Origin: an uncultured Pelagibacteraceae bacterium
GTDB lineage: Bacteria; Pseudomonadota; Alphaproteobacteria; Pelagibacterales; Pelagibacteraceae
Direction of reading: 5' to 3'
Assembly: GCA_902526115.1 (NCBI GenBank)
Contig: CABZJV010000007.1
Coordinates: 1-45,844 of the forward strand
Length of the DNA stretch: 45,844 bases
In this document: in pieces, positions 18,540 to 26,651 of the stretch
How the letters are laid out: every line of letters begins with the position of its first letter
Position numbering within the stretch: the first letter of the stretch is position 1
Translations under genes and position numbers: made by a program
The notes under the pieces: generated by a model
The model's database searches: none
Told to the model about the DNA's origin: nothing
The model's input: only the letters and a program-made list of their open reading frames with translations

Positions 18540-20609
18540 ATGTCTGAGTTTTTTTTAGAGCTATTTAGCGAGGAAATACCCGCAGGTCTTCAAAAAAATT
18601 TAAGAGAAAACTTATTGAAATCTTTTAATGATTTCTTTGAAGAGAAATCTATTCCATTTAAAAGAAGTTCTTCCTATTCAACCCCAAATAGATTGGTAAT
18701 ATTATTTGAAGGGATTCAAAAACAAACAATTCTGAAGTCTGAGGAAATAAGAGGTCCGAGTACAAAAGCCCCAGATCTTGCTATAGAGGGCTTTATACGA
18801 TCAAATCAAACTCTAAAACAAAATCTTTATGAAAAAGAAACAGAAAAAGGTAACTTTTTCTTCTTTAAAACGAAATCAAAAAAACTTTATACCCACGAGT
18901 TATTAGAAGAATTTGTTCCAAAAATATTAGATAAAATTCAATGGAAAAAATCAATGCGTTGGGGGGATTTTAGTTTAAATTGGGGTAGACCGCTCAAGTC
19001 AATTTTGGCAATCTTTAACAAAAAAACACTAATATTTAAATTTCATCATATTCAGTCATCTAATTTTACTTTCGTAGATAAAGATTTTGAAGAAAAGAAA
19101 ATGAAATTTTTTAATTTTAAAAAATATAAAAATTTCTTTAAAAAGAAACAAATAATAATTGACCCTGTTGAAAGAAAAAAAATTATTGAAAAAAAATTTC
19201 ATTTACTTTTAAAAAAGAAAAATATTGTTATAGAGCAAAATCCAAAGCTGTTGGAAGAAGTTGTTGATTTAATAGATCAACCCAATGTTCTTGTTTGTCA
19301 GTTTGATAAAGAGTTTTTAAAAATTCCAAAAGAGATTCTAATAATCACAATGCAATACCATCAAAAAAATTTTCCTACTTTTGATAATAAGGGAGGTATT
19401 ACGAACGAATTTTTAGTTGTTTCAAACAAAAAAGATCTAAAAGGGTTAATAAAGCTAGGTAACGAGAGAGTAGTAGAAGCAAGACTTACCGATGCAAAAT
19501 TCTTTTGGCAAAAAGACAAATCTCAAAATTTAGTAAAACAAGTCTCAAATTTAAAATCTATGAATTATTTTAAGGGTTTGGGAAGTTATTTCGATAAAGT
19601 TCAAAGAATGAGAAAGCTTGGAGGAATGCTTTCAGATGAACTGTTAATAAGTAAAGAAAAAGTGGAATTATCAGCATCAATCTCTAAAGTCGATTTATTA
19701 TCTAGACTAGTGGGTGAGTTTCCTGAGCTTCAAGGAATTATGGGTGGTTATTTTTCTGAGGCACAAGGTTTTGACAAGGATGTAGCACTATCAATAAGTG
19801 AACAATATTTACCCTCAGGTTCTGGGTCAATGGTTCCTAAAAAACCTTTTAGTATAGCACTAGCTCTATCAGACAAAATAGATACCCTTGTAGGTTTTTT
19901 TGGAATTAACCAAAAACCAACAAGCTCTAAAGATCCATTTGCCCTTAGAAGATTAACTTTAGGAATAATTAGAATAATTGTAGAAAATAAAACTCATATT
20001 AAAATAAGAGATTTGATTAACTATTCAGCGTCACTTTATATGGATCAAGGCTTCACATTTGAAAATAAATTACTTCAAAAAGAACTTTCTGAATTTCTAA
20101 TGGACCGACTAAAATTCTATATGAAGGAAGAAAATATTCGAAATGATATTATTCAAGCATCTATCAATTCACATAATTTAGATCAACTTGTAATAATTTT
20201 TGAAAAGGCTAAATATTTAGACAAAATAATTTCTAAATCAAACGGACAAGAGATAATATCAAGCTATAAAAGAGCCTCAAACATCTTGGAAAGTGAGTTG
20301 AAAGGACAGAATTTTGATCTTTCAAATACAAGCGATCCTAGTCTTTTTAAGACAGATTTTGAAAAAAATTTGTTTAAAAAGATAAATGAATTAAGGAAAT
20401 ATTTTTCTTCAATTAATAAAGATGAAGTTTATTTTGAAACTCTAGATAACTTACTAGATGCCAAAAAAGTAATTAACGAATTTTTTGACAATGTTATAGT
20501 TAATGACGTTGATCCAGGTATTCGTAAAAATAGACTAGAACTTATTCAAATCTTATGTAAAACCTTCAACAACTATGTTAATTTTTCTTTAGTAGACTCC
20601 CAAAAATGA
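18540..20609 (+). CDS. glyS: Glycyl-tRNA synthetase beta subunit
   Basis: LFSEEIPAGLQKNLRENL, MRWGDFSLNWGRPLKSI, DPFALRRLTLGIIRI; adjacent to glyQ. Confidence 0.95.
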   Translation: MSEFFLELFSEEIPAGLQKNLRENLLKSFNDFFEEKSIPFKRSSSYSTPNRLVILFEGIQKQTILKSEEIRGPSTKAPDLAIEGFIRSNQTLKQNLYEKETEKGNFFFFKTKSKKLYTHELLEEFVPKILDKIQWKKSMRWGDFSLNWGRPLKSILAIFNKKTLIFKFHHIQSSNFTFVDKDFEEKKMKFFNFKKYKNFFKKKQIIIDPVERKKIIEKKFHLLLKKKNIVIEQNPKLLEEVVDLIDQPNVLVCQFDKEFLKIPKEILIITMQYHQKNFPTFDNKGGITNEFLVVSNKKDLKGLIKLGNERVVEARLTDAKFFWQKDKSQNLVKQVSNLKSMNYFKGLGSYFDKVQRMRKLGGMLSDELLISKEKVELSASISKVDLLSRLVGEFPELQGIMGGYFSEAQGFDKDVALSISEQYLPSGSGSMVPKKPFSIALALSDKIDTLVGFFGINQKPTSSKDPFALRRLTLGIIRIIVENKTHIKIRDLINYSASLYMDQGFTFENKLLQKELSEFLMDRLKFYMKEENIRNDIIQASINSHNLDQLVIIFEKAKYLDKIISKSNGQEIISSYKRASNILESELKGQNFDLSNTSDPSLFKTDFEKNLFKKINELRKYFSSINKDEVYFETLDNLLDAKKVINEFFDNVIVNDVDPGIRKNRLELIQILCKTFNNYVNFSLVDSQK

Positions 20610-23263
20610 AAAAACTAATTTTAAATTTTAAATCTCAAGATAGCAAAAAAATTAAAATCCCAAGAAATTTTTTAGGTGGAAAAGGAGCCAACCTTTCAGA
20701 AATGGGTCGAATGGGATTACCAGTTCCACCTGGTTTTACTATTTCTACAAAAGTATGTGATTTTTTTTATAAAGATAAAAAAAAACTTAATAAAAGTATA
20801 ATCAAATCAATCAAAAAAGAATTAAATGCTGTTGAAAAAGAAGTTTCAAAAAAATTTGGTGATTTAAAAAATCCATTATTACTTTCAGTTAGATCTGGAG
20901 CGAGAGTTTCTATGCCTGGTATGATGGATACAATTTTAAATTTAGGATTAAACGATAAAACTGTCAAAGCCTTAGCATTAAAAACTTCTAATGGACGATT
21001 TGCCAAAGATAGCTACAGAAGGTTTATTCAAATGTATGGTAATGTAGTAATGGGCGTTGAAGGGTATCATTTTGAAGAATTAATTGAGAATTACAAACTT
21101 ACAAAGGGTGTTTTGTTGGACACTGATTTAGATGAAAATGACTGGGATGGGCTTATTGAAGATTTTAAAAGAACAGTTAGGGAAAAAGCAAATAGAGATT
21201 TTCCACAAGATGTTCATGAACAGTTGTTAGGAGCAATCAGTGCAGTATTTTTGTCTTGGGATAGTAAGAGAGCAAAAATCTATAGAAAATTAAATCATAT
21301 ACCTGCAGAGTGGGGAACGGCAGTCAATATTCAATCAATGGTTTTTGGAAACATGGGAGACGACTGTGCAACTGGTGTTGTTTTTACAAGAAATCCATCA
21401 GACGGTGAAAACGAAATTTATGGAGAATATTTAATTAATGCACAAGGAGAGGATGTTGTTGCTGGAACAAGGACTCCGCAATATATAACTAAAAAAGCTC
21501 GACAAAATGCTAAAGTTAAAGCTCCGTCAATGGAAGAGTCTATGCCTAAAGTTTATAGACAACTTTATAACATCTTAAAAAAATTAGAAAAACACTACAA
21601 AGATATGCAGGATGTAGAGTTTACAGTTGAAAATAAAAAGCTGTGGATGCTTCAAACACGTTCTGGAAAAAGAACTGCAAAATCTGCAGTTAAAATTGCA
21701 GTTGATATGGTTAAAGAAAAATTAATTTCAAAAAAAGAGGCTGTGTTAAGAATTGATCCACACTCACTTGACACACTTCTTCATCCAACTCTTGATGAAA
21801 AAAACACAATAAATGTAATTGCAAATGGATTGCCCGCATCACCAGGTGCTGCGAGTGGTAAAGTGGTATTTACATCTGAGGAAGCAGAAAGACTAACATC
21901 AATGATGCAAGACACAATATTAGTTAGAGTAGAAACTTCTCCTGAAGATATACAAGGAATGCATGCAGCCAAAGGAATCTTAACTGCAAGAGGTGGAATG
22001 ACAAGCCATGCAGCAGTTGTAGCAAGAGGAATGGGAAGGCCTTGTGTTTCAGGGTCGAGTGAAATTGATATCAATTATGAAAATAAGTCATTTAAAACTT
22101 CATCTATGGAAATTAAAGAGGGACAAATAATAACAATAGACGGCTCAACAGGAAGAATAATCGAAGGTAGTGTTTCTACCATAAAGCCTGAAATATCTGG
22201 TGACTTTTCAAAATTAATGTCGTGGGCTGATAGTTATAGAAAATTGAAAATAAGAACAAATTCTGAAACCTTAAAAGATACTAAAACTGCAAAAGATTTT
22301 GGTGCTGAAGGCATTGGACTTTGCAGAACTGAGCACATGTTTTTTGATGAAGAGAGAATTCTATCTGTAAGAGAAATGATTCTTTCTAAAACTAAAGAAG
22401 ACAGAGCTAAAGCTTTAGATAAACTTTTACCGTATCAAAAAAAAGACTTCACTGAAATTTTTAAGATTATGAATGGTTTGCCAGTGACAGTAAGATTGTT
22501 AGATCCTCCTTTACATGAATTTTTACCAAGAACAAATAAAGAAATTAGCGAATTAGCAGAAATTGTTAATCTCTCGGTAAAAGAGGTTGAAACAAGGATA
22601 GAGGAACTTCATGAACAAAATCCAATGCTAGGTCACAGAGGTTGCAGATTAGCTATATCATTTCCTGAAATATATGAGATGCAATGCAGAGCAATTTTTG
22701 AAGCTTTATGTGAACTAAAAAAAAATAAAATTAAATCGGCGTTTCCCGAGATTATGATTCCACTAGTTTCTACTGAGGCTGAAATTAAAATAATGAAAGA
22801 TTTAGTTAAAAGAATAGCAAGTATGGTTCAAAAAGAAAATAAATTAAAATTAGACTTCATGGTTGGAACGATGATTGAGCTCCCAAGAGCAGCTATTAAA
22901 GCAAAAGAAATAGCAAAATACGCAGAATTTTTTAGTTTTGGTACAAATGATTTAACACAAACTACTTTTGGAATTAGTAGAGATGATAGTGGAAAATTTT
23001 TAAATGATTACTTGGAAAATAAAATATTTTCTATTGATCCTTTTGTATCAATTGACGAAGGAGTTTCAGATTTGGTTGAGATTGCTGTTGAAAAAGGAAA
23101 GAGCCAAAATAAAAAAATAAAACTAGGGATCTGCGGAGAACATGGTGGAGATCCTAAAAGTATTTATTTTTGCGCTAAAGCCGGTCTTCATTATGTATCT
23201 TGTTCCCCTTATAGAGTTCCAGTTGCTAGATTAGCAGCAGCTCAGGCAGAATTAAAAAAATAA
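20606..23263 (+). CDS. ppdK: Pyruvate, phosphate dikinase
   Basis: GGKGANLSEMGRMGLPVPPGFTIST, GGMTSHAAVVARGMG phospho-His site, GICGEHGGDP. Confidence 0.97.
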   Translation: MKKLILNFKSQDSKKIKIPRNFLGGKGANLSEMGRMGLPVPPGFTISTKVCDFFYKDKKKLNKSIIKSIKKELNAVEKEVSKKFGDLKNPLLLSVRSGARVSMPGMMDTILNLGLNDKTVKALALKTSNGRFAKDSYRRFIQMYGNVVMGVEGYHFEELIENYKLTKGVLLDTDLDENDWDGLIEDFKRTVREKANRDFPQDVHEQLLGAISAVFLSWDSKRAKIYRKLNHIPAEWGTAVNIQSMVFGNMGDDCATGVVFTRNPSDGENEIYGEYLINAQGEDVVAGTRTPQYITKKARQNAKVKAPSMEESMPKVYRQLYNILKKLEKHYKDMQDVEFTVENKKLWMLQTRSGKRTAKSAVKIAVDMVKEKLISKKEAVLRIDPHSLDTLLHPTLDEKNTINVIANGLPASPGAASGKVVFTSEEAERLTSMMQDTILVRVETSPEDIQGMHAAKGILTARGGMTSHAAVVARGMGRPCVSGSSEIDINYENKSFKTSSMEIKEGQIITIDGSTGRIIEGSVSTIKPEISGDFSKLMSWADSYRKLKIRTNSETLKDTKTAKDFGAEGIGLCRTEHMFFDEERILSVREMILSKTKEDRAKALDKLLPYQKKDFTEIFKIMNGLPVTVRLLDPPLHEFLPRTNKEISELAEIVNLSVKEVETRIEELHEQNPMLGHRGCRLAISFPEIYEMQCRAIFEALCELKKNKIKSAFPEIMIPLVSTEAEIKIMKDLVKRIASMVQKENKLKLDFMVGTMIELPRAAIKAKEIAKYAEFFSFGTNDLTQTTFGISRDDSGKFLNDYLENKIFSIDPFVSIDEGVSDLVEIAVEKGKSQNKKIKLGICGEHGGDPKSIYFCAKAGLHYVSCSPYRVPVARLAAAQAELKK

Positions 23264-23276
23264 TAATTTTAATTAA

Positions 23277-23301
23277 GGGGCGTTCTGTTGCCAGGTGCCC
23301 C
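23277..23301 (+). repeat. Direct repeat copy 1 (ggggcgttctgttgccaggtgcccc), att-like; same sequence as tmRNA coding-piece terminal hairpin
   Basis: Exact 25-nt match to 25404-25428; 13 nt after the ppdK stop. Confidence 0.95.
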
Positions 23302-23383
23302 GAACTTTGTAACAAAATCCCCATATTTTAACAACTAGCAATCGTAAAATTAGACTAATCATACAATAATTACGTATGGATTA

Positions 23384-23401
23384 CGTATGAAATTTCATAC
23401 G
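23384..23401. repeat. Perfect 18-bp palindrome CGTATGAAATTTCATACG with adjacent ACGTATG direct copies (23372, 23383)
   Basis: Read directly; the left half is the reverse complement of the right half. Confidence 0.95.
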
Positions 23402-23452
23402 ACATGAACCTATATTTTGGACTCATGGTTCAGGATTTGTTAATCTTGGATA

Positions 23453-23869
23453 GTGGATATAGTAAGTAAAAAAATTGATCAAATTAAAAAAAAAAGGGCT
23501 TTTGAAGAAAGAGAAAAAAGAAGGGAAAAATTATTACGAATTTATTTTAACAAAATTTTTAATAAACCTTATTTAAATCAAGTTATAAAATTATTAGATT
23601 TTTTAAACGAAGATATTAAAAGAAAAAATAATCAAATTATTTTAAAACAATCTAAAGGCTCTTTTATGGTAACTTGTAAAAGTAATGGGTATTATTTTAG
23701 AACTTGGTTATTTTTAATTTCAAAAAATGAGGCTTTCGTAAGCTCTTCAGGATTAGATAATGATGGCATTTTGTTTAGAGATGGTTTTGATTTACCTAAA
23801 GATAAAGACAAAGCATTTAAAAAATTTATTGATGATATAGAATTAATAGATCAAAAAAGACCAAAATGA
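23453..23869 (+). CDS. Hypothetical protein (138 aa, GTG start), cassette A
   Basis: Open ORF between repeat copies 1 and 2; no family recognised. Confidence 0.6.
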   Translation: MDIVSKKIDQIKKKRAFEEREKRREKLLRIYFNKIFNKPYLNQVIKLLDFLNEDIKRKNNQIILKQSKGSFMVTCKSNGYYFRTWLFLISKNEAFVSSSGLDNDGILFRDGFDLPKDKDKAFKKFIDDIELIDQKRPK

Positions 23870-24039
23870 AAACCTTCCAAAAATATTTCAAAGAAAACAC
23901 ACCAGAAACAACTATAGATAAATATATCAAGTTAGTTTTGAAAACTGTTGATCCAGATGATGAAGTAGAAATTTATTATGACTTCGAAGAAGGAATGCAG
24001 AAAGTAAATATTAAAGTTTTAGATCGGATTTTACATTAA
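23866..24039 (+). CDS. Hypothetical small protein (57 aa; MKTFQKYFKENTPETTIDKYIKLVLKTVDPDDEVEIYYDFEEGMQKVNIKVLDRILH), overlapping the upstream stop by ATGA
   Basis: ATG at 23866, TAA at 24037-24039; not in supplied ORF track because of length. Confidence 0.55.
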   Translation: MKTFQKYFKENTPETTIDKYIKLVLKTVDPDDEVEIYYDFEEGMQKVNIKVLDRILH

Positions 24040-24157
24040 TGAAAAAAAAGATATCTAGAATTATTTAAAGCAAAATATTAATTAAAATCCCGTACAGAGC
24101 ACGTATGAATTTGCTTAATTAATAAAAAAAGATTGCTAATGCTTATGAATAAAGAAT

Positions 24158-24187
24158 TGAGAAGGGGCGTTCTGTTGCCAGGTGCCC
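24158..24187 (+). repeat. Direct repeat copy 2 (tgagaaggggcgttctgttgccaggtgccc), att-like
   Basis: 30-nt exact match to 25398-25427. Confidence 0.95.
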
Positions 24188-24257
24188 TTAACTTTGTTTG
24201 ATTATACATAAGTATTTTACCAAAAATACATAAATTTTAAGTACTAGGCCGAATAGA

Positions 24258-24280
24258 GGCCGAACAAAATCGACTCGGCC
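24258..24280. other. Hairpin GGCCGA...TCGGCC followed by a T-run, upstream of the endonuclease-like ORF; possible terminator or structured element
   Basis: 6-bp inverted repeat with 11-nt loop, then aatcctatttttttt. Confidence 0.5.
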
Positions 24281-24311
24281 AATCCTATTTTTTTTGATAA
24301 ATTTTTATTTA

Positions 24312-25352
24312 ATGAGAGGAAAAAACTTTAATAAAGTTAAACCATACGTTTATTGGTTAAAAAATTTGACTACAGGTCAAAAATACTTTGGTGTTAGATG
24401 GAAAAATGCGACGAAGTTAAAAAAAACCCCTATAGATGATTTTGGGAAGATTTATTTTACGAGCTCAAAAAACCTTAAGAAAGAATTTAAAAATAACCCT
24501 GAAAATTTTAGATACAAACTTATTTATACCTTTGATACCCCAGAGGAAGCTAGAGATTATGAAACAAAATTTACCAAGAAAATAGTTAAAGACAAAAGGT
24601 GGATCAATAGAAGTAGTTGGCCAGTCGTAATAAAAAGTCCAGAAGAGCAAAAAAAACATGGAGCTTATATTTCTAAAATCATGAAGGGAAGAATATTCAC
24701 TTCTGACTGGAAAAGAAAAATATCAGATTCAAAAAAAGGATCAAAGAATCCAGCTTTTGGAAAACCAAGTCCAATGTTTGGTAAAAAACGTTCAGATCAA
24801 TTTAAATTAAAAAGTTCTGAAGGCCATAAAGGGCAAAAAGCTTGGAATAAAGGAATTCAATATTCCTTAGTTTCTAGATCTAAAAATTTAAGTTATGAAA
24901 AAAAAAAGCAACTAATAGACAAGCTTAATGGAATTAAAAAGAAACGTATAGTATCTGCTGAAACAAGAAAAAAATTATCTTTGGCATTTAAAGGAATTAA
25001 GTTGTCAAAAGAAAGAAGAGAGAGACTGAAAGGATGGAAGCAGACTGATCAAGCAAAAAATAAAATTTCATTGGCTATTAAATCAAGAATGAAAAACCCT
25101 GAAGTTAGAAAAAAAACTATACAGCATCTTAGAACTGGAGCAAAAAAACGTATTTATAAACCTTTGTCTGAAGAACTTAAAAAAAAATTATCTATTGCAT
25201 TAAAAGGAAAAAAAAGGCCCCCTGAAATAGGTTTAAAAGTTTCAAAGAAACTCAAGGGACGAAAAAGATCAACAGAAACAAAATTAAAAATTGCAAAAAC
25301 CTTAAGAGAACGAAAAAAAAAAATTCTGGCCGAACGTAGGCCGAGTCATTAG
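24312..25352 (+). CDS. GIY-YIG-type homing endonuclease-like protein with C-terminal NUMOD3-like repeats, cassette B
   Basis: N-terminal YVYWLKNLTTGQKYFGVRW...IYFTSSKNLKKEFKNNPENFRYKLIYTFDTPEEARDYETKF resembles the GIY-YIG fold; repeated SKKGSKNPAFGKPSPMFGKKRS / SAETRKKLSLAFKGIKLSKERRERLKG resembles NUMOD3. Confidence 0.75.
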   Translation: MRGKNFNKVKPYVYWLKNLTTGQKYFGVRWKNATKLKKTPIDDFGKIYFTSSKNLKKEFKNNPENFRYKLIYTFDTPEEARDYETKFTKKIVKDKRWINRSSWPVVIKSPEEQKKHGAYISKIMKGRIFTSDWKRKISDSKKGSKNPAFGKPSPMFGKKRSDQFKLKSSEGHKGQKAWNKGIQYSLVSRSKNLSYEKKKQLIDKLNGIKKKRIVSAETRKKLSLAFKGIKLSKERRERLKGWKQTDQAKNKISLAIKSRMKNPEVRKKTIQHLRTGAKKRIYKPLSEELKKKLSIALKGKKRPPEIGLKVSKKLKGRKRSTETKLKIAKTLRERKKKILAERRPSH

Positions 25353-25397
25353 GTTGCATTTCTAAATTTACGTTGATACTACAAACTAATAAACAAA

Positions 25398-25428
25398 TGA
25401 GAAGGGGCGTTCTGTTGCCAGGTGCCCC
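25398..25428. repeat. Direct repeat copy 3; lies in ssrA and is its coding-piece terminal hairpin (minus strand GGGGCACCTGGCAACAGAACGCCCC)
   Basis: Matches copies 1 and 2. Confidence 0.93.
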
Positions 25429-25661
25429 AGACCCCGTTTGCTTAATTAACTAAGTTAATTAGGCAGCAAGTGCGTAACTTTCGTTAGCAATTATAAATTA
25501 GCCCGTCACGGTGGAACAATCCCGAACGAAAGAATAGCCTTTAGACATTCGTCGAATCTAGTTCACCCCCATAAGTTGTAATGGTGGAGGTGGTGGGTAC
25601 TGCCCCCACGTCCGCAATGGTTATTACGAAATTCGTTTATCGTCATAGTTGGAAAACCAAC
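25400..25661 (-). ncRNA. ssrA: Circularly permuted two-piece tmRNA: acceptor piece ~25661-25582, spacer 25581-25571, coding piece 25570-~25400
   Basis: Minus strand: 5' GGGGGTGAACTAGATTCGACG; 3' CACCTCC-A-CCA pairs with GGGGGTG; T-arm GTGGG-GGCAGTA-CCCAC; tag GCT AAC GAA AGT TAC GCA CTT GCT GCC TAA = ANESYALAA* at 25488-25459; outer boundaries approximate. Confidence 0.92.
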
Positions 25662-25667
25662 ATTATT

Positions 25668-25695
25668 AATATAAAAGGAATTACAGCAGATTCAA
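25668..25695 (-). promoter_or_regulatory. Candidate ssrA promoter: TTGAAT - 16 nt - TATATT
   Basis: -35 at 25695-25690, -10 at 25673-25668 on the minus strand, just upstream of the acceptor piece. Confidence 0.5.
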
Positions 25696-25703
25696 TAACA
25701 ATC

Positions 25704-26651
25704 ATGAAACTTACTAAAGAACAAGAAGAAGAAATTAGAAATCAACAATCTCAAAGCAATCTAACTAAAAGAGTTACTGCACCAGAGCTTGAAAGTATTC
25801 TTTACGAGGCAATTCCTGCTTTAGATCATGGTTTTGTCAGGGTTGTTGATTACATGGGAGACGATACATCTATTGTTCAATCTGCAAGAGTTTCTTATGG
25901 AAAAGGTACTAAACAAGTTTCAACTGATAAAGGTTTAATTAAATACTTGATGAGGCATTGGCATAGCACCCCATTTGAGATGTGTGAAATAAAATACCAT
26001 ATAAAATTACCAATATTTATTGCTCGACAATGGATTAGACATAGAACTGCTAATGTTAACGAATATTCAGCAAGATATTCTATTCTAGATAAAGAATTTT
26101 ATTTACCTACTCAAGAAAACTTAGCAGCTCAATCTACTAGTAATAGACAAGGAAGAGGAGATGTATTGAAAGGTAAACAAGCTAAGGAAGTTTTAGAACT
26201 TTTAAAAAGTGATGCTGAGAGAACTTATGACAATTATGAAACAATGCTTAACGAAAGGTTTGATGGCTCAACTATAGACGAAAATAAAAAAGGTCTAGCA
26301 AGAGAACTTGCAAGAATGAATTTGACTTTAAACACTTATACCCAATGGTACTGGAAGACTGATCTTTTAAATTTAATGAATTTTTTAAGATTAAGGGCTG
26401 ATAGCCACGCACAGTATGAAATAAGAGTTTTCGCAGATATAATGTTAGATACAGTTAAAAAATGGGTTCCCATAACTTATGAAGCTTTTATGGATTATAG
26501 AGTTGGAGGTACAGAAGTTTCTGCAAAAGGAAAACTAATTATTCAAAAACTTATGAAAGGTGAAAATGTTGATATCGACAGCTCAGGTTTATCAAAAAGA
26601 GAATGGAATGAGTTAATGATTGCTTTTGATCTTAAAGATAAGTTGATTTAA
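25704..26651 (+). CDS. thyX: FAD-dependent thymidylate synthase ThyX
   Basis: [20 protein letters not shown] ThyX motif; start moved to 25704 because 25581-25703 overlaps ssrA and its promoter. Confidence 0.94.

Follow-up and report, generated by a model that had tools for sequence, protein, structure and literature searches.

A hairpin repeat array between ppdK and ssrA

The window, by which we mean the whole 45,844-nucleotide stretch of DNA that was analyzed, comes from an uncultured Pelagibacteraceae bacterium and contains a circularly permuted alphaproteobacterial tmRNA gene, ssrA, flanked by ppdK and thyX (Table 1). The first-pass annotation had noticed that the hairpin within ssrA recurs twice more in the same orientation, and our analysis upheld this observation. 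The 24-mer GGGGCGTTCTGTTGCCAGGTGCCC is exact at all three places, with spacings of 887 and 1240 bp, and the number of chance matches expected with up to three mismatches was 0.00 (100 shuffles). The 30 nt reported as common to copies 2 and 3 consist of TGAGAA followed by the 24-mer, and copy 1 stands as close behind ppdK as had been described. In the permuted, minus-strand gene, the third copy forms the 3' end of the coding piece, which bears out the proposal that this end is the target. Folded in the ssrA sense, the 25-mer gives a hairpin with symmetric arms and an energy of -11.8 kcal/mol. No further copies were found in the genome from which the window comes (59% complete). The locus has three features by which ssrA genomic islands are recognized, namely an intact ssrA 3' end, a direct repeat at the far boundary, and, as described below, relatives in which the site is empty between the same flanks.

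The three copies delimit two cassettes. Over its first 169 bp, cassette 1 shares 78% identity with the left end of a cassette at L269, a locus from the same genus. Cassette 2 encodes a GIY-YIG/NUMOD3 homing-endonuclease-like protein (NUMOD3, 8e-15; phrog_314, 5e-23; SegE_GIY-YIG, 5e-5, just short of the cut-off), for which no homologue was found at E<=1e-8 among 150 relatives. The earlier statement that neither cassette encodes an integrase was confirmed by Pfam and PHROGs searches, and the window's own genome, at 59% completeness, gave no PF00589 match at E<=1e-6. Each cassette carries a pair of short words near either end, although the right-hand pair of cassette 1 is imperfect. These pairs, which the first-pass annotation had not noted, are the strongest evidence within the window. 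With them and the hairpin cores, both cassettes have the makeup of CIMEs, in which attL and attR are kept and integrase and transfer genes are absent.

Table 1. Features of the ppdK-ssrA-thyX locus in the window
Feature	Position	Strand	Remarks
ppdK	20606..23263	+	TIGR01828, 1369 bits; outer flank of the presumed ancestral junction
Hairpin copy 1	23277..23301	+	Distal array end; exact 24-mer (23277-23300) + C; 13 nt past ppdK stop
Cassette 1	23277..24163	+	887 bp; between hairpin copies 1 and 2
Candidate left arm pair, cassette 1	23372..23389	+	ACGTATG x2, 11-bp spacing (23372/23383)
Cargo ORF, 138 aa	23453..23869	+	GTG start; no family (no significant Pfam/PHROGs match)
Cargo ORF, 57 aa	23866..24039	+	No family (Pfam/PHROGs search)
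Candidate right arm pair, cassette 1	24090..24107	+	Imperfect; CCGTACA / ACGTATG (24090/24101); CGTA core, 11-bp spacing; read from the sequence
Hairpin copy 2	24164..24187	+	Middle boundary; exact 24-mer
Cassette 2	24164..25403	+	1240 bp; between hairpin copies 2 and 3
Candidate left arm pair, cassette 2	24247..24263	+	GGCCGA x2, 11-bp spacing (24247/24258)
GIY-YIG/NUMOD3 homing-endonuclease-like ORF	24294..25352	+	Likely start ATG 24312
Candidate right arm pair, cassette 2	25328..25344	+	GGCCGA x2, 11-bp spacing (25328/25339)
Hairpin copy 3	25404..25428	+	3' end of ssrA coding piece; exact 24-mer (25404-25427); candidate attachment core
ssrA	25400..25699	-	Circularly permuted tmRNA; RF01849, 226 bits; ARAGORN tag ANESYALAA
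thyX	25704..26651	+	TIGR02170, 205 bits; inner flank

Empty sites, shared cassettes, and integrases in related genomes

The hairpin motif was found in 345 of 397 Pelagibacteraceae/SAR11 genomes, with 0 to 8 copies per genome; many of these relatives are incomplete single-cell assemblies, and reversed-pattern controls were empty. In a named collection, the copies came almost entirely from Pelagibacteraceae/Pelagibacterales, which points to a SAR11-type host. Among own-genus genomes of at least 90% completeness (n=113), zero to five copies occurred in 2, 54, 31, 21, 3, and 2 genomes, respectively, which amounts to a single copy in 54 and at least two in 57, in a tally that takes in secondary copies too. 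Near ssrA, the copies all share one orientation, and in the fetched loci that include ssrA, its copy is the innermost of the array. The first-pass annotation had supposed that the ppdK-ssrA junction was invaded twice in tandem and had named empty one-copy sites and variable cassettes among relatives as the signs to look for. Both are present. At L035 and L066, ppdK is followed after 13-14 nt by the hairpin and ssrA, with the same neighbors as in the window, and across relatives copy number, spacing, and the cargo between copies all vary. These empty sites and this cargo turnover, together with the integrases that adjoin ssrA in two of the relatives (see below), support the proposed double invasion. 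Strain-variable cassettes bounded by RNA-gene fragments are likewise what characterizes additive flexible genomic islands.

The contrary expectation, that the repeat would be dispersed independently of ssrA, held in part: secondary copies and arrays, which we read as secondary sites, do lie behind other genes, notably rnhA, but only in some genomes. At L061, L270, L275, L281, and L277, hairpins are found directly behind rnhA and far from ssrA, mostly in arrays of two to five that hold cassettes and arm words of the kind described below. At L071, L072, L272, L278, L038, and L070, mostly single hairpins sit between other conserved genes, the neighbors, named by eye, being pnp-like and fabI-like, superoxide-dismutase-like, and small monooxygenase-like genes. 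The same hairpin also occurs in IMG/VR phage contigs (L074-L081) as part of complete permuted tmRNAs with the tag ADENLALAA or a longer form with that ending, with no integrase in view. Hairpin scans of IMG/VR for a phage attP returned only complete permuted tmRNAs and chance GC-rich matches, and a protein scan of IMG/VR with the G225 integrase, introduced below, gave no matches. A tmRNA repeat may be present in Prochlorococcus MED4.

Movement of cassettes between genomes is indicated by a 274-bp single-ORF cassette that is 100% identical at L054:9063-9337, L269:3765-4039, and L194:5597-5871, in flanks that are unrelated. L269 belongs to the window's genus and L054 to another genus. The identity begins at the first GGGG and stops after GGGGCGTTCTGTTGCC in the second hairpin, inside the 16-bp core. 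When similar cassettes from different contexts were compared in nine pairs, identity was 0.34 outside the left end and 0.93-1.0 in the core. Because the shared core is so short, these data favor site-specific over homologous recombination.

Intact 343-aa tyrosine integrases (PF00589; phrog_1) adjoin ssrA in two relatives, G225 and G527. A decayed integrase N-terminus beside a hairpin in G120 (L022) was the query that led to G225, where the integrase ORF starts 18 nt past the end of the tmRNA gene as delimited by ARAGORN. The second case, from the genus search, is 52% identical to the first and belongs to a 6,173-bp element that is bounded by exact hairpins and occupies the ppdK-ssrA-thyX interval, the same locus as in the window. 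This G527 element consists of the integrase (phrog_1), a primase (phrog_1156), and small ORFs, with no capsid genes recognized. It thus combines the tyrosine integrase and replication gene by which satellites and tycheposons are defined, and which the window cassettes lack; the integrase that marks an ssrA island is likewise missing from the window cassettes and present in G225 and G527. At L181, the left end of the cassette is the same as that of G225 as far as the start of int, but int is absent and other genes take its place, which is direct evidence that int-less cassettes and int-bearing elements have att ends in common.

Such enzymes are rare. Two intact ssrA-type integrases and one remnant were all that was found in several hundred genomes, the intact ones being drawn from partly overlapping sets of 397 and 399. 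An integrase profile built from three sequences caught the remnant only and missed the G225-type enzyme, which was then sought by tblastn with the G225 protein. In the genus search, homologues with 34% identity or less lay away from the hairpin, several of them adjoining tRNA-Met or tRNA-Arg. A relative of the ssrA-type integrase with 45% identity adjoins a tRNA-like end elsewhere in G218 (L249:9020-12560), with a primase-like ORF downstream. In most relatives and array carriers, the only PF00589 protein encoded is Xer-like in size, and mobilization would therefore come from outside or be rare.

Arm-type words and two classes of cassette

Many cassette ends share an architecture in which the words themselves vary. 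GC-rich 6-mers that recur at a spacing of exactly 11 bp, some 60-70 bp away from the hairpin, were found at 69 of 192 cassette ends and in none of 102 internal control segments, while any other spacing occurred at no more than 20 ends. Within a cassette, the left word agrees with the right word far more often than under shuffled pairing (z=6.9, 2000 permutations), and the inverted comparison gave a slight excess over chance only; these statistics include related, non-independent cassettes, among which about 15 unrelated words are represented. Plain local alignment of the ends yielded a modest signal, and it was word sharing together with spacing that proved decisive. Words differ between cassettes within a common scaffold. 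The left arm of cassette 1 has the att scaffold seen at L269 and L093 with a different word, the right-arm scaffold of cassette 2 recurs with other words at L269, L093, and L143, and the word at L269 and L093 is ATTCCGAA. Tandem words are also found just upstream of the int start codon in SAR11 phage-type integrases, at 11 bp in 15 of 25 and at 12 bp in 5 more, and G225 carries the 11-bp tandem word TGGCGTCATGGTGGCGTCA in this position. From their position, their pairing, and known integrase biology, we infer that the 11-bp words are candidate arm-type integrase-binding sites. Since both window cassettes have arm pairs, we read them as putative integrase-less attL-cargo-attR units moved in trans.

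The 110 distinct cassettes have a median length of 837 bp and fall into two classes. Arm words were detected at one end or more in 57 of the 110, by a test that gave false positives in 4 of 198 internal segments, and this class, to which both window cassettes belong, has a median length of 1.35 kb and several ORFs per cassette. Most short cassettes (220-470 bp) are without arm words and hold a single ORF that fills the inter-hairpin space. Cargo ORFs in mid-sized cassettes mostly run toward ssrA and thus against the direction of its transcription; this holds for 127 of the 148 that are at least 70 aa long, in 90 sequence clusters. Family matches are scattered over methyltransferases, DpnI-like and Mrr-like nucleases, a polysaccharide lyase, an MFS transporter, and DUFs. 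Chimeric and composite cassettes are present at L057 and L056. Some recurrent cargo proteins (L270:3059-4726, L128:4859-6373, and L062:3174-3848) contain an NLQPLWxxENL motif; they have no Pfam match and are HNH-like by this motif alone. Beside ssrA, L056:1234-11286 and L058:4455-18108 are larger inter-hairpin blocks, 10 and 13.7 kb long, that contain sugar-nucleotide/polysaccharide-type genes.

A model for the array, its alternatives, and known systems

Our current hypothesis, in which we have considerable confidence, is that tyrosine-integrase insertions at the ssrA tail have stacked as a hairpin-bounded cassette array and that the window holds two integrase-less units mobilized in trans or by accretion. 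Tyrosine-integrase elements would use the hairpin at the 3' end of the ssrA coding piece as their attachment core, with strand exchange probably taking place inside GGGGCGTTCTGTTGCC. Each insertion would restore the tmRNA end and displace the earlier end outward, and as a result successive insertions would stack as an array of hairpins in one orientation. The window would then represent two insertions at the old ppdK-ssrA junction, whose cassettes kept attL and attR with cassette-specific arm words and either lost int or never carried it. They may have been mobilized, in trans or by accretion, by the integrase of a full satellite-like element of the sort that is intact in two relatives. Transfer may be driven by satellites or phages, and the window cassettes could still be mobile at present. 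Several findings count against this hypothesis: nearly all array carriers lack the mobilizing enzyme, about half of the cassettes have no detectable arm words, no excision circles were seen, and the IMG/VR scans gave no attP of this type. A broader version, which we put forward tentatively, is that the locus is a Pelagibacteraceae-wide platform without a resident integrase, where one hairpin core is combined with interchangeable arm words in a conserved att scaffold. Cassettes would answer only to matching satellite-borne integrases, and the smallest single-gene cassettes might move by the hairpin alone.

The arm-less class bears most directly on an integron-like alternative, which we regard as unlikely. 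Here the hairpin, perhaps as a folded single strand, would itself be the recombination site, and arm-free single-gene cassettes would be moved by Xer or by an integrase acting in trans. This explanation would account for the symmetric hairpin arms, for the arm-less one-ORF cassettes of mostly 220-470 bp, and for the fact that one of them is 100% identical across genera. The integron feature of one ORF and one hairpin per cassette is seen in that small class, but the window cassettes lack it and bear arm sites. No IntI-like gene was found, whether paired with attI where the array starts or elsewhere; the PF00589 proteins of relatives are mostly Xer-sized, and the 59% complete genome of the window had no PF00589 match. 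In addition, genes are usually tightly packed in SAR11 genomes, and so an ORF that fills the inter-hairpin space proves little.

The rarity of ssrA-type integrases and the chimeric or composite cassettes at L057 and L056 could also mean that the insertions were once genuine and are now fixed relics, with current variation produced by deletion between hairpins. We consider this improbable, since recent gain is favored by the strain-specific cargo and by the 274-bp cassette that two genera carry in identical form. Still less probable is an origin of the hairpin as a terminator or RNA 3'-end module that was copied to several gene ends, with arrays arising by duplication or homologous recombination. 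Single hairpins behind rnhA, near pnp, and at other genes would fit such a module, but shared cassettes have unrelated flanks outside a 16-bp core that is too short for homologous recombination, the arm words are cassette-specific and paired, and int adjoins ssrA. Mobilization by HUH (IS200/IS605 or REP-type) or serine recombinases has the lowest probability of all: a hairpin does stand at each unit boundary and the ssrA islands of Dehalococcoides rely on serine recombinases (PMC3146451), yet among 109 family genomes Y1 transposases were found in one and resolvases in five, all five from two other genera, and it is tyrosine integrases that occupy the site.

The locus offers a defined, countable site for the site-specific gain of single genes and small operons in SAR11. 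Few cell types in the ocean are as abundant as these bacteria, whose genomes are very small and supposedly IS-poor. Gain at ssrA concerns about half of the near-complete genomes and nearly all genera sampled. The arm words lead to testable predictions of which integrase pairs with which cassette, and primers placed in the ssrA flank would allow cargo to be surveyed in sea water directly. We found no published account of the SAR11 ssrA array in the literature searched, which covered few subscription papers. Within that literature, the SAR11 system, the dominance of integrase-less units, and the variable arm words appear new, while the general kind is known from Dehalococcoides ssrA islands, CIMEs, and additive islands.

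Integron arrays resemble the SAR11 arrays in their ordered, short, same-orientation cassettes with a hairpin-forming site per unit; in SAR11, however, neither IntI nor an attC consensus is established, and most longer cassettes have arm-type sites. Prochlorococcus tycheposons and phage satellites share with the 6.2-kb G527 element a tyrosine recombinase and a replication gene at an RNA-gene site, whereas the SAR11 cassettes have neither gene. CIMEs and ICE/IME accretion involve integrase-less attL-cargo-attR units in tandem at one site, as in SAR11, where by contrast no conjugative or mobilization genes were seen, the full elements found look like int-plus-primase satellites, and arm words vary by unit. 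The ssrA islands of Dehalococcoides are tandem and present in many copies in a strain, their boundaries are each marked by a 19-20 bp direct repeat of ssrA, their cargo is strain-specific, and 15 that lack the integration module were proposed to be CIMEs (PMC2764846, PMC3146451). They are thus like the SAR11 arrays in their tandem, repeat-bounded structure at ssrA and in their integrase-less members. They differ in having a serine recombinase module, mostly rdh cargo, and a far larger size, whereas SAR11 has a tyrosine integrase, units of mostly 0.2-2 kb, and a permuted ssrA whose coding-piece tail is the core. Additive tRNA-gene islands of streamlined marine bacteria, described in Actinomarinales (PMC7771536) and Methylophilaceae (PMC10872708), and also P-SS2/MIT9313 (PMC2784084), likewise hold cassettes that lie between repeated RNA-gene 3' fragments and are exchanged between strains and genera. 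In SAR11, the target is instead a permuted tmRNA gene, and the integrase, the candidate arm sites, and the crossover core are defined.
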